Below, one piece after another: positions 11,430 to 45,784 of a stretch of 45,784 bases of DNA. The notes under the pieces are model-generated. The model saw only the letters and a program-made list of their open reading frames with translations. It was not told the DNA's origin and made no database searches. A program made the translations under genes and the position numbers. This stretch comes from an uncultured Candidatus Melainabacteria bacterium (lineage in GTDB: Bacteria > Cyanobacteriota > Vampirovibrionia > Gastranaerophilales > Gastranaerophilaceae), in assembly GCA_947090755.1 (NCBI GenBank), contig CAMUPF010000014.1, positions 1 to 45,784 on the forward strand, read 5' to 3'. Position 1 is the stretch's first letter; every line of letters starts with the position of its first letter.

Positions 11430-11438
11430 CCCCCCCCC
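11430..11438. repeat. C9 homopolymer tract
   Basis: Nine consecutive C between the ArsR terminator and a class 2 hairpin repeat. No credible gene runs through it on either strand, so unlike the poly-G tracts at 12713, 38546 and 45750 there is no frame for it to switch. Confidence 0.8.
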
Positions 11439-11820: not shown

Positions 11821-12597
11821 ATGGAAAATAACGAACAAAACAACATCGTTCCTCGCAACACCGGAAATCCGGCCTTTAATCCCGAATTTCTGGCCGATGA
11901 AAGAGTGCTTGATGGCGAGCCAATGACCGTTAACGGTACTATTAACAAAACAGCTATCAGTTTGTTACTTGTCTTTATTGCGGCGGCTTTTACATGGAAT
12001 TTGGCGGCTAAAGGGTTTATGGATCTCGCGCAGGGACTTACGGTTGTTTCTTTAATCGCGGCCTTCGTTCTCGGGTTCGTAATCATTTTTAAGCGGACTT
12101 CATCGGTTATTCAGTATCTCGTTCCTGTCTATGCATTGCTTGAAGGTACCTTCCTTGGAAGCGTTTCTTATATGTTTGAAGCTTCTTTCCCAGGGATTGT
12201 TCAAACTGCAATTAAAGCTACACTTTTATGTGTTGCGGTCATGCTTATTCTTTTTAGAACAGGAGTTATCAGAGTTACGGAAAAACTCCGTGCGGGTGTA
12301 ATTATGTGCACTATAACTGTTGCGGGTGTTTATCTTATTGATTTGATTTTGAGTTTGTTTGGAATAAGAGTTCCGGCGATTAATGCAGCGACGCCGTTCG
12401 GTATTGGTCTAAGCATTTTAATTGTTGGCATTGCCGCATTTAACCTGTTGTTAGATTTTGATTTTATCGAAGAGGCAAGTCGCCGCTTAATGCCAAAATA
12501 CATTGAATGGTACGGCGCATTTGGTTTGATGGTTACGATTGTATGGTTGTACATCGAACTTTTAAAACTTTTAGCGAAACTCCAACGCAGACGTTAA
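11821..12597 (+). CDS. Bax inhibitor-1/YccA-like membrane protein
   Basis: A 258-aa integral membrane protein with about seven hydrophobic segments from residue 43 onward. A cytosolic N-terminal stretch contains NPAFNPEF, typical of the BaxI_1 family. C-terminal features DFDFIEEA and P-YIEWYGAFGLMVTIVWLYIELL match the family's conserved acidic pair and last span. Members are thought to affect Ca2+ leak or protease regulation; in bacteria the role is not settled. AAGGAG precedes ATG 11821. It is monocistronic, ending at the terminator 12600-12625. Confidence 0.85.
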   Translation: MENNEQNNIVPRNTGNPAFNPEFLADERVLDGEPMTVNGTINKTAISLLLVFIAAAFTWNLAAKGFMDLAQGLTVVSLIAAFVLGFVIIFKRTSSVIQYLVPVYALLEGTFLGSVSYMFEASFPGIVQTAIKATLLCVAVMLILFRTGVIRVTEKLRAGVIMCTITVAGVYLIDLILSLFGIRVPAINAATPFGIGLSILIVGIAAFNLLLDFDFIEEASRRLMPKYIEWYGAFGLMVTIVWLYIELLKLLAKLQRRR

Positions 12598-12599
12598 TT

Positions 12600-12625
12600 A
12601 AAAGCTCCCATAAGGGAGCTTTTTT
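12600..12625 (+). terminator. Terminator after the Bax inhibitor-like gene
   Basis: Stem AAAAGCTCCC / GGGAGCTTTT with an ATAA-type loop and T6. The promoter of prepilin-like gene 2 begins two bases later. Confidence 0.9.
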
Positions 12626-12626
12626 A

Positions 12627-12655
12627 TTGACAAACGCAAAAACATGGTACATAAT
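12627..12655 (+). promoter_or_regulatory. Promoter of prepilin-like gene 2
   Basis: TTGACA (12627-12632), 17-bp spacer containing AAAACATG, CATAAT (12650-12655). The same arrangement is found before prepilin-like genes 3 and 4. Confidence 0.85.
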
Positions 12656-12679
12656 GATTGTAAAAGAAAGGATGAAATT

Positions 12680-13757
12680 ATGAAAAAACATAGTAATGTA
12701 TCAATTTGTGCAGGGGGGGGGGGGGCCGGCTGAGCCGGTTCTATATACGGGTTCCGAGCTTGCGGACGACGTGAAAATTAACGCGAAGGGCGGAGAGCCG
12801 GCGGGGCTTGCTTTTACGATGGCCGAAATCCTGTTATCTCTAACGATTATTGGTGTAGTAGCGGCGATAACGCTTCCGTCGCTGACCGGTAACATAAACG
12901 AGCGCACATGGAATACACAGCGCAAGGCGCTTTATGCAAGGTTTTCTCAGACAATCGCTCTGATGCCATCGTTGAATGGTTACGGAACATTGAGCGCGAC
13001 AGAAGATACAGCGGCTGAAACTTTTGTTACGGAAGGCCTGACCAAAGTTCTTAAGATTAATAATATATGTGATGCGGACCACCTTGCTGACTGTGGTGTT
13101 CCTGCAAAAGTCACGACTTTAGACGGAACTTCTGTTTTTTCTATCCCATCTACGTTGCTTGCTTATAATGATATTTTTTCTATAAGTGCTTGTAATTCAG
13201 GTGCAGCAGACATAAATTCTGAAGGATATTGGACGTATGCGCAGCAGGATACAAAAGCTGCAGCATTTGAAACTCAAAATGGTGAAAGTATACTGGTTTA
13301 CTATAACCCCAATTGTCAGGGGGCAATGGGGGATACTGCCGGCTATTTTGCACAGCCTAAGATGTGTGCGAATTTTGTGTATGATTTGAACGGTAATAAA
13401 GGCCCGAATACTGTGGGCAAAGATGTAGGTTTTATGACTGCCATGTATCCGTCAGATGCAATCGTTGTAGCACCAGTACCTCTTCAACGTTATTATCCTC
13501 AAGCTGTTGTTCAGCCTGTCGCCGGTGAAAAATGTAAGGAAATGGATTCTGAAAGCCGAGTTCCAAACCGTGATGAGTTGGCTTCTATGTTTTATAATGA
13601 AAAACTTTTGGGCGCCTTTAAAGGGCACTACTGGTCAAGCACCATTGAATATGATGTATCAAATGGTTCCCGTGCTTGGATTCAGTATTTTGATTATGGC
13701 CGTCATTTCCCTTTTCAACGAGATGGCTTGGGCTTTGTATGGTGTGTTAAAAGGTAG
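12680..13757 (+). CDS. Prepilin-like protein 2, phase OFF (poly-G frameshift)
   Basis: Type IV pilin-like protein: FTMAEILLSLTIIGVV after a long leader, with Ala at -1 and Glu+5. The RBS-backed start is ATG 12680 (GAAAGGATG upstream). From it the frame reads MKKHSNVSICAGGGGAG and stops at TGA 12731, just after a run of 13 G (12713-12725). One G fewer would join it to the prepilin frame and give ~358 aa. An ATG at 12696 is already in the prepilin frame but has no ribosome site. The body is ~65% like gene 1: VYDLNGNKGPNTVGKD, then SRVPNRDELASMF, YWSST and terminal VWCVKR, a DUF1566-like, possibly lectin-like C-terminal domain. Current state is inferred OFF. A one-base homopolymer sequencing error would also explain it. 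Confidence 0.85.
12713..12725 (+). repeat. Poly-G tract (13 G), contingency locus
   Basis: Thirteen G starting 33 bases into the coding region of prepilin-like gene 2. Length modulo 3 decides whether the start codon connects to the prepilin; 12 would be in frame. Confidence 0.9.
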
Positions 13758-13802
13758 AGGCTATTACCTCTTGTAACGAAAAGTTACACAATTTCGCACT
13801 AC

Positions 13803-13831
13803 TTGCCTAAATTTTTTTTATCAGGTATAAT
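13803..13831 (+). promoter_or_regulatory. acpP promoter
   Basis: TTGCCT (13803-13808), 17-bp spacer with a T8 run, TATAAT (13826-13831). The start would lie near 13838, leaving a ~45-nt 5' UTR. Confidence 0.75.
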
Positions 13832-13883
13832 GGCATGGTGTAGTAACACAGTTTAATTATTTTAATTGAAGAGGAAAGAAAAG

Positions 13884-15550: not shown

Positions 15551-16586
15551 ATGCAGGTTAGAAATGATATTCAGTCAATAAATAGAACGCAGAAACCGCT
15601 TCGTAATGTACCCTCGTTCGGCAGGAGGGGGGGAGTTACTTAACCGTTTAACACAGGTCATACCGGACACAAAAGTTTCTAAAGGTTTGACTCAGTTGGA
15701 TAAAAATTGTTTTCAAAGTTATGTTTATTCCATGAAATTTAAACTCGGCACAACCGCTGAGGAGATTAAGGCGCTCACTAAACTGCAAGGTGAGGATTTT
15801 GTGATTGGTGCGTACGATTTGTTAACGAAGAAAATGGGAATTCCTGATGAGATTAAACCGCCTCTGATTCCAAAACAACAGTCTGCAACAGCTCCGATGG
15901 CATATATGTTTAATTATAATGCTATAGCTTTAAATCCTGATTTATCTACTTTGTCGCAAGGTATGATTTTTAATGGGCTGCGTCATGAACTCCAGCATTT
16001 CAGGCAGAATATGGATATTTTCAGGCATGAAACTTTAGGGGAAAAAGTTGTAGATATTCATGTAAACGGCCTCATTAATACCGAAAAAGCTACGGTTAAA
16101 CATTTACTTACAAATATGAGTTTGGACGAAATGGTTCAGCAAGGTGTTATTCAAACACAAGAGGTTTACGATGCCATGGTTCGTTATAAGAAATGTCTTG
16201 AAAACAACGACATCGCCGCTTTTGATAAAGAAGTTGAAAAATTGGCACCTGAATTTCGCCAGCAGGTAACAGCATTCCGGCAGAAAGTGATTGATTTTAT
16301 GGGGATTATAAAAACCGGAACAAAAGAAGCTGAAAAAGCCGAACACTATCTTAACGATTTTCAAAATACAAACTATTTTGATGGTGGTGACAAAGTTGAT
16401 TATGCTAAGTATTTTGCCTCAGGAATTGAGCAAGAAGCTTTAATCGCCGGAGAACGTGCAGATTTTGAGTTTTCCGGCGAGGGCTGTATGGTTAAATTTT
16501 CGAAAGACAAATTCAAAGCGGCTATGGCTTCGAAAGATGCGGAAGTTAAAAAGATGTTGGATGATTTGGAACGCGCTGAGGGATAA
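15551..16586 (+). CDS. HExxH putative metallopeptidase, interrupted by a G7 frameshift
   Basis: From ATG 15551 (GAAAGGAAATATT upstream) the frame reads MQVRNDIQSINRTQKPLRN and stops at 15641, just past a run of seven G (15627-15633). The long downstream frame continues from the same point in another frame to 16586. With six G the two join into a 344-aa protein. The downstream part has HELQH (first residue encoded at 15984), a zinc-metallopeptidase HExxH motif, and a later EQEALIAGERADF that could supply a gluzincin-type third ligand. No signal peptide or membrane span is seen. An internal ATG at 15606 lacks a ribosome site. I do not recognise the family. The break could be phase variation, decay or an assembly error. 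Confidence 0.65.
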
Positions 16587-38515: not shown

Positions 38516-39487
38516 ATGAAAAACGAACTTGTAAACATGTCAGCAGGGGGGGGGGGGCGTGCCTTAACAGGCACATCTAAGCGCTTAGGGTTTACGATGG
38601 CCGAAATCCTCTTATCATTAACCATAATCGGCGTGGTTGCGGCGATAACTTTGCCGTCATTGACAGGCAACATTAACGAACGCACCTGGAACACACAGCG
38701 CAAGGCGCTTTATGCAAGATTTTCTCAGGCTATTCCGCTGATAGGTGCCTTGAACGGGTATGGAAATTCTGAAACTTTTATCACCTCCGCGTTGAGTAAA
38801 GTTCTGAAAATCAACAATATATGTGATGATGAGCATATTCAGGATTGCGGGATTCCGTCTAAATTTGTAACTCTTGCAGGTAGTAACTACAGTTATTCTG
38901 TTCCGTTTAAAATGTCGGATTATCAGTCAAAAATGACGAATATGTCTTATTCCCCGCTGTCACTTTCTTATGGCGGTGATGATTCAAACGCGGCGGCGTT
39001 CGAAACCGCGAACGGCGAAAGTATTCTTTTATTTTATTTCCCTAAATGTCAGCCTGATATGAATGAAACGACGACATATTTTGTTCAGCCTAAAATTTGT
39101 GCCAATATGATTTATGACCTGAACGGTTCTAAAGGCCCGAATACCGTTGGTAAGGACATTGGTATTATGACGGTGTTATATTCGACGGACAGTGTGGTCG
39201 TTGCGCCTCAAGTATGGTATCGTAATTCGGCGAGTGTTGAGGGCGATTATAGAGCGGCACAAGAGTATTGTAAAGAACTTGGTTCTGATTTGCGAATGCC
39301 AAATTTGGATGAACTTGCTTCAATATTTGTTAATAATGCTCTACTGAATGTCGGTGAATCTTGGGCGTTTTGGTCGTCTAAAATTGCCAGCCAGAATTAC
39401 GCGTGGGATCAATCGTTTGTAACCGGAAATAGACGTATTACTCCTAAAACGGACACTGCTGTGAGAGGAAGATGTGTTTATAGATAA
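38516..39487 (+). CDS. Prepilin-like protein 3, phase ON
   Basis: A 323-aa type IV prepilin-like protein. Leader MKNELVNMSAGGGGRALTG continues to a KRLG^FTMAE cleavage site: Gly25 at -1, Phe+1, Glu+5, with basic residues before the cut. The hydrophobic helix EILLSLTIIGVVAAIT follows. The GGGG is encoded by exactly twelve G (38546-38557), so the start codon is in frame with the prepilin. The body shares YDLNGSKGPNTVGKDIG and DLRMPNLDELASIF with genes 1 and 2 and ends in RGRCVYR; the region between is divergent (WAFWSSKIAS). Likely a surface-exposed pilin or pseudopilin with a variable, possibly lectin-like tip. AAAGGAG precedes ATG 38516. It follows the bioY operon but has its own promoter. 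Confidence 0.9.
   Translation: MKNELVNMSAGGGGRALTGTSKRLGFTMAEILLSLTIIGVVAAITLPSLTGNINERTWNTQRKALYARFSQAIPLIGALNGYGNSETFITSALSKVLKINNICDDEHIQDCGIPSKFVTLAGSNYSYSVPFKMSDYQSKMTNMSYSPLSLSYGGDDSNAAAFETANGESILLFYFPKCQPDMNETTTYFVQPKICANMIYDLNGSKGPNTVGKDIGIMTVLYSTDSVVVAPQVWYRNSASVEGDYRAAQEYCKELGSDLRMPNLDELASIFVNNALLNVGESWAFWSSKIASQNYAWDQSFVTGNRRITPKTDTAVRGRCVYR
38546..38557 (+). repeat. Poly-G tract (12 G), contingency locus
   Basis: Twelve G, four glycine codons, in the leader of prepilin-like gene 3. This is the in-frame length; gain or loss of one G would abolish the protein. Confidence 0.9.
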
Positions 39488-45719: not shown

Positions 45720-45784
45720 ATGAAAAACAATATTGTAAACATGTTAGCAGGGGGGGGGGGGGCCTCTTTTAGGTAGAGTGAGTG
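45720..45784 (+). CDS. Prepilin-like gene 4 start, phase OFF, cut by window end
   Basis: ATG 45720 with GAAAGGATG upstream opens MKNNIVNMLAGGGGASFR and stops at TAG 45774 after thirteen G. With twelve G the frame would read GGGGPLLGRVS and stay open to the window edge, as in gene 3. The prepilin motif itself lies beyond the window, so identity rests on the shared promoter and leader. Confidence 0.75.
45750..45762 (+). repeat. Poly-G tract (13 G), contingency locus
   Basis: Thirteen G in the leader of prepilin-like gene 4, one more than the in-frame length seen in gene 3. Confidence 0.9.

Follow-up and report, generated by a model that had tools for sequence, protein, structure and literature searches.

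The run of 13 guanines inside the leader of a prepilin-like gene is best explained as a slipped-strand contingency switch, a reading to which a probability of roughly 0.8 is given; the switching itself we infer from the sequence. The gene lies in the window, which here means the whole analyzed stretch of 45,784 nucleotides. The anatomy of the locus, its recurrence throughout a family of paralogues, the coexistence of ON and OFF tract lengths, the conserved reading frames, the presence of the layout in related species and a gene for a prepilin peptidase were all seen directly.

Organization of the prepilin locus

The gene appears to be a single-gene unit on the forward strand, where its parts and the other family copies of the window also lie. 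A sigma-70-like promoter, TTGACA-17-CATAAT, was read by eye at 12627-12655, with the TTGACA box at 12627-12632 and the CATAAT box, at 17 bp spacing, at 12650-12655. The ribosome site AAAGGA (12667-12672) stands at a good spacing from the ATG at 12680. The start codon and the first part of the leader, MKKHSNVSICA, cover 33 nt (12680-12712) and run into the 13-G tract, the proposed switch (12713-12725). A post-tract leader spacer beginning with CCGGCTGAGCCGGTTCTATATACGGG follows (12726-12812), a module that also occurs in other paralogues. The mature pilin, beginning with FTMAEILLSLTIIGVVAAITLP and bearing a predicted C-type-lectin-like head, comprises 314 aa and a stop codon (12813-13757).

With 13 G, as assembled, the start codon is out of the pilin frame and its reading frame ends at the TGA at 12731-12733. 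The neighboring frame, shifted by one base, stays open as far as 13757, and a tract of 12 or 15 G would be in the pilin frame; a leader of 44 aa and a mature pilin of 314 aa then make up 358 aa. The first-pass annotation had read the gene from ATG 12680, with its ribosome site, through 13 G to the TGA at 12731, and had expected a prepilin of about 358 aa upon loss of one G. Its coordinates and frames are correct, and the predicted length agrees. Another ATG, located at 12696 and lacking a ribosome site, is in the pilin frame at 13 G; because of it, the list of open reading frames hides the frameshift and shows a seemingly intact gene of 353 aa. This is a warning that gene callers hide such a switch by picking a downstream start.

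Overlapping G8 words number 19 in the window, against 0.31 expected. Three further family copies are visible. At 146-1093, only the mature part and the stop codon are present, the leader and any tract lying beyond the contig start. A second complete member of 323 aa (38516-39487) is ON, with 12 G in frame at 38546-38557. The third copy (45732-45784) has its start and a tract of 13 G (45750-45762), and the contig ends before the pilin motif.

Two other runs were noticed in the window. A gene with a HELQH (metallopeptidase-like) motif, at 15551-16586 and without a match in Pfam, carries a degraded run, GGCAGGAGGGGGGG, that breaks the frame at TAA 15641. Its counterpart in the related genome G002 (JAMPIJ01) has 13 G and is in frame, and the gene looks like a second, non-pilin switch. 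The other is an intergenic run of 9 C (11430-11438), directly after a terminator-like hairpin behind an ArsR-like gene.

Guanine runs across the genome

The genome of which the window is part (1,779,235 bases, or 1.78 Mb, in 53 contigs; 99.98% complete) holds 115 runs of at least 9 G. A total of 1.27 Mb, covering the listed tracts, was analyzed in stretches: G or C runs of at least 9 amount to 117 there, compared with 0.93 expected under a first-order Markov model. The run lengths are bimodal, being common at 6, rare at 7-10 and peaking at 11-13, with the top at 13. Nearly all long runs sit in the leader of one prepilin family of about 105 members, among which tract lengths range from 8 to 15 G.

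The layout is common to about 100 members: a start codon with a Shine-Dalgarno (SD) site, 27-49 nt, a pure G run, an in-frame leader and the pilin motif. An SD-linked ATG lies at a fixed distance (27/29/30/33 or 46/48/49 nt) ahead of 100 of the 118 runs of 8 or more G, and an AAAGGA/GGAGG-type ribosome site is found 27-49 nt ahead of the tract in about 100 genes. The tract state was tallied in the 81 of 100 genes that have both the start and a readable pilin motif: 19 are in frame (ON; two of them have a stop codon in the leader), 57 have one G too many (ON+1) and five have one too few (ON-1). The in-frame requirement is a multiple of three (12) for class I leaders and 10 or 11 for class II leaders. 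The ON+1 excess tracks the frame particular to each leader class and not a single tract length (p about 1e-5 by permutation, with the simplification that paralogues count as independent). Tracts of 11, 12 and 13 G occur together within one leader class, even behind one spacer module. Of 20 near-identical leader pairs, 10 differ in tract length, close to the number expected from the overall distribution. As contig ends often coincide with tracts, single tract lengths may be misassembled; lengths of 12-13 G in a draft assembly are uncertain for each gene, and the interpretation draws on the entire family.

GGG accounts for only 9-13% of the glycine codons, yet the run is always pure GGG. Hence, what is conserved is the run in the DNA rather than the encoded peptide, which rules out selection for poly-glycine as such. 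A full-length MutL is present in the genome, so loss of mismatch repair was discarded as the cause of the hypermutability.

The post-tract spacers are shared modules, present at 12726-12812 of the window and at about 60 other loci, often with small inverted repeats. The module of the window gene was found in 11 genes behind seven different upstream leaders, as if leaders recombined at the G run. Long G runs also occur in non-pilin genes of the same genome (L055:16311, L034:7618 on the reverse strand, L072:2030 on the reverse strand, L056:2355 and L056:3466). Their products are an acyltransferase 3 (PF01757), a PRTase-CE protein, an HTH-repeat protein, an acetyltransferase-like gene product and one unassigned protein.

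Selection on the paralogue family

Full-length members (295 aa or more) number 102 of about 105, and the few short ones hit contig or stretch ends. In 98 of 105 members, residues 1-40 of the mature protein are the same, and the DNA encoding them differs at a mean of 25 of 120 sites. Pairs in which both genes are OFF have a median dN/dS of 0.125, and of 0.23 for the C-terminal head; these values are rough, as dS exceeds 1 and is near saturation. With an invariant N-terminus in spite of synonymous change, and a low dN/dS, the copies are old, are maintained by selection and have to be expressed now and then. The downstream frames of the OFF genes are intact and under purifying selection; these genes are therefore not relics. 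Recent duplication spreading one founder length was ruled out, as no paralogue pair compared exceeds 84% amino-acid identity and dS is above 1.

The prepilin leader and the predicted lectin-like head

In the 12-G copy, the class III signal is recognized by TIGR02532 with 19.5 bits, above the cut-off of 16.3; the Pfam N_methyl score of 19.9 is slightly below its cut-off of 21.2. The family fits the definition of a type IV prepilin, which calls for a short basic leader, a cleavage site before FTxxE and a hydrophobic helix. The leader carries the tract and ends just ahead of the mature pilin; leaders of the family are unusually long, 18-95 aa. A prepilin peptidase is encoded in the same genome (PF06750, E 2.4e-33, at G000:C17), and pilB, pilC, pilT and pilD have been reported for a termite Gastranaerophilus (PMC5877343).

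An AlphaFold2 model built from an alignment of 63 paralogues reached a pLDDT of 89. The best Foldseek match of this model is the C-terminal domain of Legionella Lcl (PDB 8q4e, E 1.5e-4, TM-score normalized by target 0.61), followed by the C-terminal domain of Bdellovibrio Bd2740 (PDB 8oks, E 2.7e-3, TM-score normalized by target 0.63) and then by snake C-type lectins. The head is thus predicted to have the C-type-lectin-like fold of Lcl. Pfam Lcl_C (PF07603) matches weakly, at E < 0.01, in 34 of the 63 paralogues. Both window copies score 27 bits, below the gathering cut-off of 34.9, and for this reason the head is named Lcl-like and not Lcl_C. Diversity-generating retroelements also use lectin-like folds. 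The Lcl and Bd2740 domains resemble the variable head of the family in predicted fold, but they are not borne by a prepilin, unlike the head described here. Lcl is reported to bind sulphated glycosaminoglycans (PMC11162425); for the heads of the family, glycan binding is only presumed.

Tracts in related genomes

The genus is close to Candidatus Gastranaerophilus: a flanking gene has 82% protein identity to Ca. G. phascolarctosicola Zag_221, a koala MAG with a 12-G in-frame prepilin in the slot of the window gene. Six further genomes of the genus were counted for runs of at least 10 G: five hold 87-127, and one, G005, holds none. The counts are 0 to 88 in the family's other genera and 0-3 in the remaining families of the order. 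The tract layout is shared by most genomes of the genus and by many in the family.

The slot before acpP-fabF (12597 to 13866 in the window) holds no pilin in G002, a different pilin in G004 and, in G005 (L144), a pilin with the short leader MKKRFKTA and no tract. Presence, absence and exchange of cassettes are thus apparent at one place. Fourteen slots are common to the window's genome and G002 or G003, with outer flanks 74-93% identical and different leaders. At 11 of the 14, the tract lengths also differ; as the leader sequences there differ too, and the species are not the same, these differences are not creditable to slippage alone. The pattern is read as cassette turnover at fixed slots, and shared slots are therefore not clean allele comparisons. 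The scan of genome contigs, which covered genomes other than the window's own, returned no conspecific alleles, only other species (G002, i.e., JAMPIJ01, and Zag_221), and no relative was found in the viral contigs scanned; a pattern search also gave 11 matches. A public MAG labelled Fusobacterium sp. (L238, JAMPIJ010000009.1) is identical to G002 over 4.6 kb; it is a Gastranaerophilus relative, and its label looks wrong.

The offsets from the ON length are specific to the genome (loci L115, L123, L148-L237 and L329-L358 for G012, G027, G003 and G002). ON+1 is the prevailing state in the window's genome and G003, and ON-1 (10 G where 11 would be in frame) in G012 and G027; G002 is mixed (8/7/5), with all three frames represented. 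Opposite and mixed offsets are at odds with a single constant assembly error and with a single frameshift decoding rule.

Proposed mechanism and alternative explanations

Replication slippage would alter the run by one or two G. In the window gene, lengths that are multiples of three would join the start to the pilin frame (ON), and other lengths would lead to a nearby stop (OFF). The run encodes only glycines of the leader, which the prepilin peptidase should remove before the FTMAE motif; because the run lies in the part to be removed, the mature pilin would be the same at any in-frame length. About 100 old, divergent paralogues would each carry such a switch, and each mature protein would combine an invariant assembly helix with a differing lectin-like head. 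A population would then hold many ON/OFF combinations of pilus-borne adhesins, most of them OFF in any one cell. In this scheme, we infer slippage within a clone, protein loss in OFF cells, cleavage of the leader, pilus assembly and adhesion to glycans of host or food. Slippage at the RNA level could let OFF genes leak.

The strikingly uniform states within the window's genome, G003, G012 and G027 speak against slippage, since free drift would spread the lengths over the frames. Our best guess is that ON is disfavored and that the assembled consensus of a mixed population reflects a mutational equilibrium. Uniform offsets would also suit a fixed decoding rule, by which transcriptional slippage or ribosomal frameshifting at the run keeps every gene steadily at low expression at any length, and the purifying selection on OFF genes is in line with this. 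However, the shift needed is opposite between genera (one G has to be removed in the window's genome and G003 but added in G012 and G027), every frame is represented in G002 and many copies are plainly in frame, which makes such a rule unlikely. Quite unlikely, too, is that the assembled lengths are off by a constant, most genes being truly in frame and the run being ordinary coding sequence. Homopolymers of 12-13 G are hard to sequence, contigs break at tracts, 57 of 81 genes exceed the in-frame length by exactly one G, whatever the leader class, and a Bifidobacterium G run had a reference length different from the main length in culture (PMC9187656). But 11, 12 and 13 G coexist in one leader class and behind one spacer module, two other genera are one G too short and G002 is an even mix, which leaves little room for a constant error of +1. 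Moreover, pure GGG runs in about 100 old paralogues would need a reason.

The start of the window gene could instead be ATG 12696, in the pilin frame at 13 G, so that the gene would be ON as assembled. This is very unlikely, as it is ATG 12680 that has the ribosome site, and several ON+1 paralogues (e.g., L044 6853) are without any in-frame alternative start. An alternative start therefore cannot be the family rule, and the start survey ruled out one common start in the 13-G frame across the family. The frameshift in the assembled sequence would fit a decaying relic, but such a state is hardly credible with 314 intact codons downstream, 102 full-length copies in the family, a dN/dS of about 0.1 and an N-terminus that stays invariant while synonymous sites change. 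The slipped-strand switch is hence retained as the preferred explanation. Its extension to the lineage is more tentative, at somewhat less than even odds: phase-plus-antigenic variation in gut Cyanobacteriota, with about 100 switchable lectin-like pilus adhesins per genome, tracts one slip from ON and mostly resting OFF, and whole cassettes exchanged at fixed slots.

Comparison with known systems and biological meaning

The principle of poly-G switching is classic, being known from Neisseria pilC, Campylobacter and Bifidobacterium pili. In Neisseria gonorrhoeae, pilC1 and pilC2 have a homo-guanine tract in the signal peptide region (PMC5354566). As in pilC, the G run here lies in the cleaved N-terminal signal of a putative type IV pilus adhesin gene, where one-base slips would turn it ON or OFF. 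Unlike here, pilC exists in two copies rather than about 100, and its switching was demonstrated experimentally. PilC/PilY1 is, moreover, a large tip adhesin and not a prepilin with a class III signal.

Poly-G phasomes have been described in Campylobacter with PhasomeIt (PMC6321876) and in C. upsaliensis (PMC539331), and most C. jejuni have 18-39 phase-variable genes (PMC6321876, PMC539331). In both systems, G runs lie within genes, on the coding strand, throughout the genome and switch surface functions, putatively so here. The Campylobacter runs are mostly of 9-10 G over many unrelated genes, in contrast to 11-13 G in almost exclusively one paralogous family. The sortase-dependent pilus of Bifidobacterium breve, another gut commensal with a G run in a pilus gene, has 10-12 G, with mixed lengths measured in one culture (PMC9187656). 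It involves one or two clusters per genome and Gram-positive sortase pili, compared with type IV prepilins here.

Nothing relevant on phase variation in Melainabacteria or Gastranaerophilales was found in the open-access literature searched, nor was a repertoire of such size in a gut commensal lineage. This agrees with the first-pass annotation, which had held the arrangement to be undescribed for type IV pilin-like families of gut Cyanobacteriota. Its recognition of a slipped-strand layout is borne out by some 100 members built alike, by in-frame and out-of-frame lengths that coexist, by the conserved downstream frames and by relatives that share the layout. A uniform 12 G at every copy, which it had named as contrary evidence, is not what this assembly contains. 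The present interpretation goes beyond that first view, as it concerns a whole repertoire and not one gene. The novelty lies in the lineage itself, in how large the set is within a single family, in the tract's position inside a disposable prepilin leader and in its coupling to a predicted lectin-like head.

In a non-photosynthetic cyanobacterial genus of the gut, with no sign of pathogenicity, the set of putative switches is among the largest, and pilus adhesins of a single family account for nearly all of it. The question is testable with existing metagenome reads. If switching is true, individual cells would differ in the adhesins that they display, which offers a concrete idea of how these uncultured bacteria could alter their exterior in response to immunoglobulin A, phages or changing glycans.
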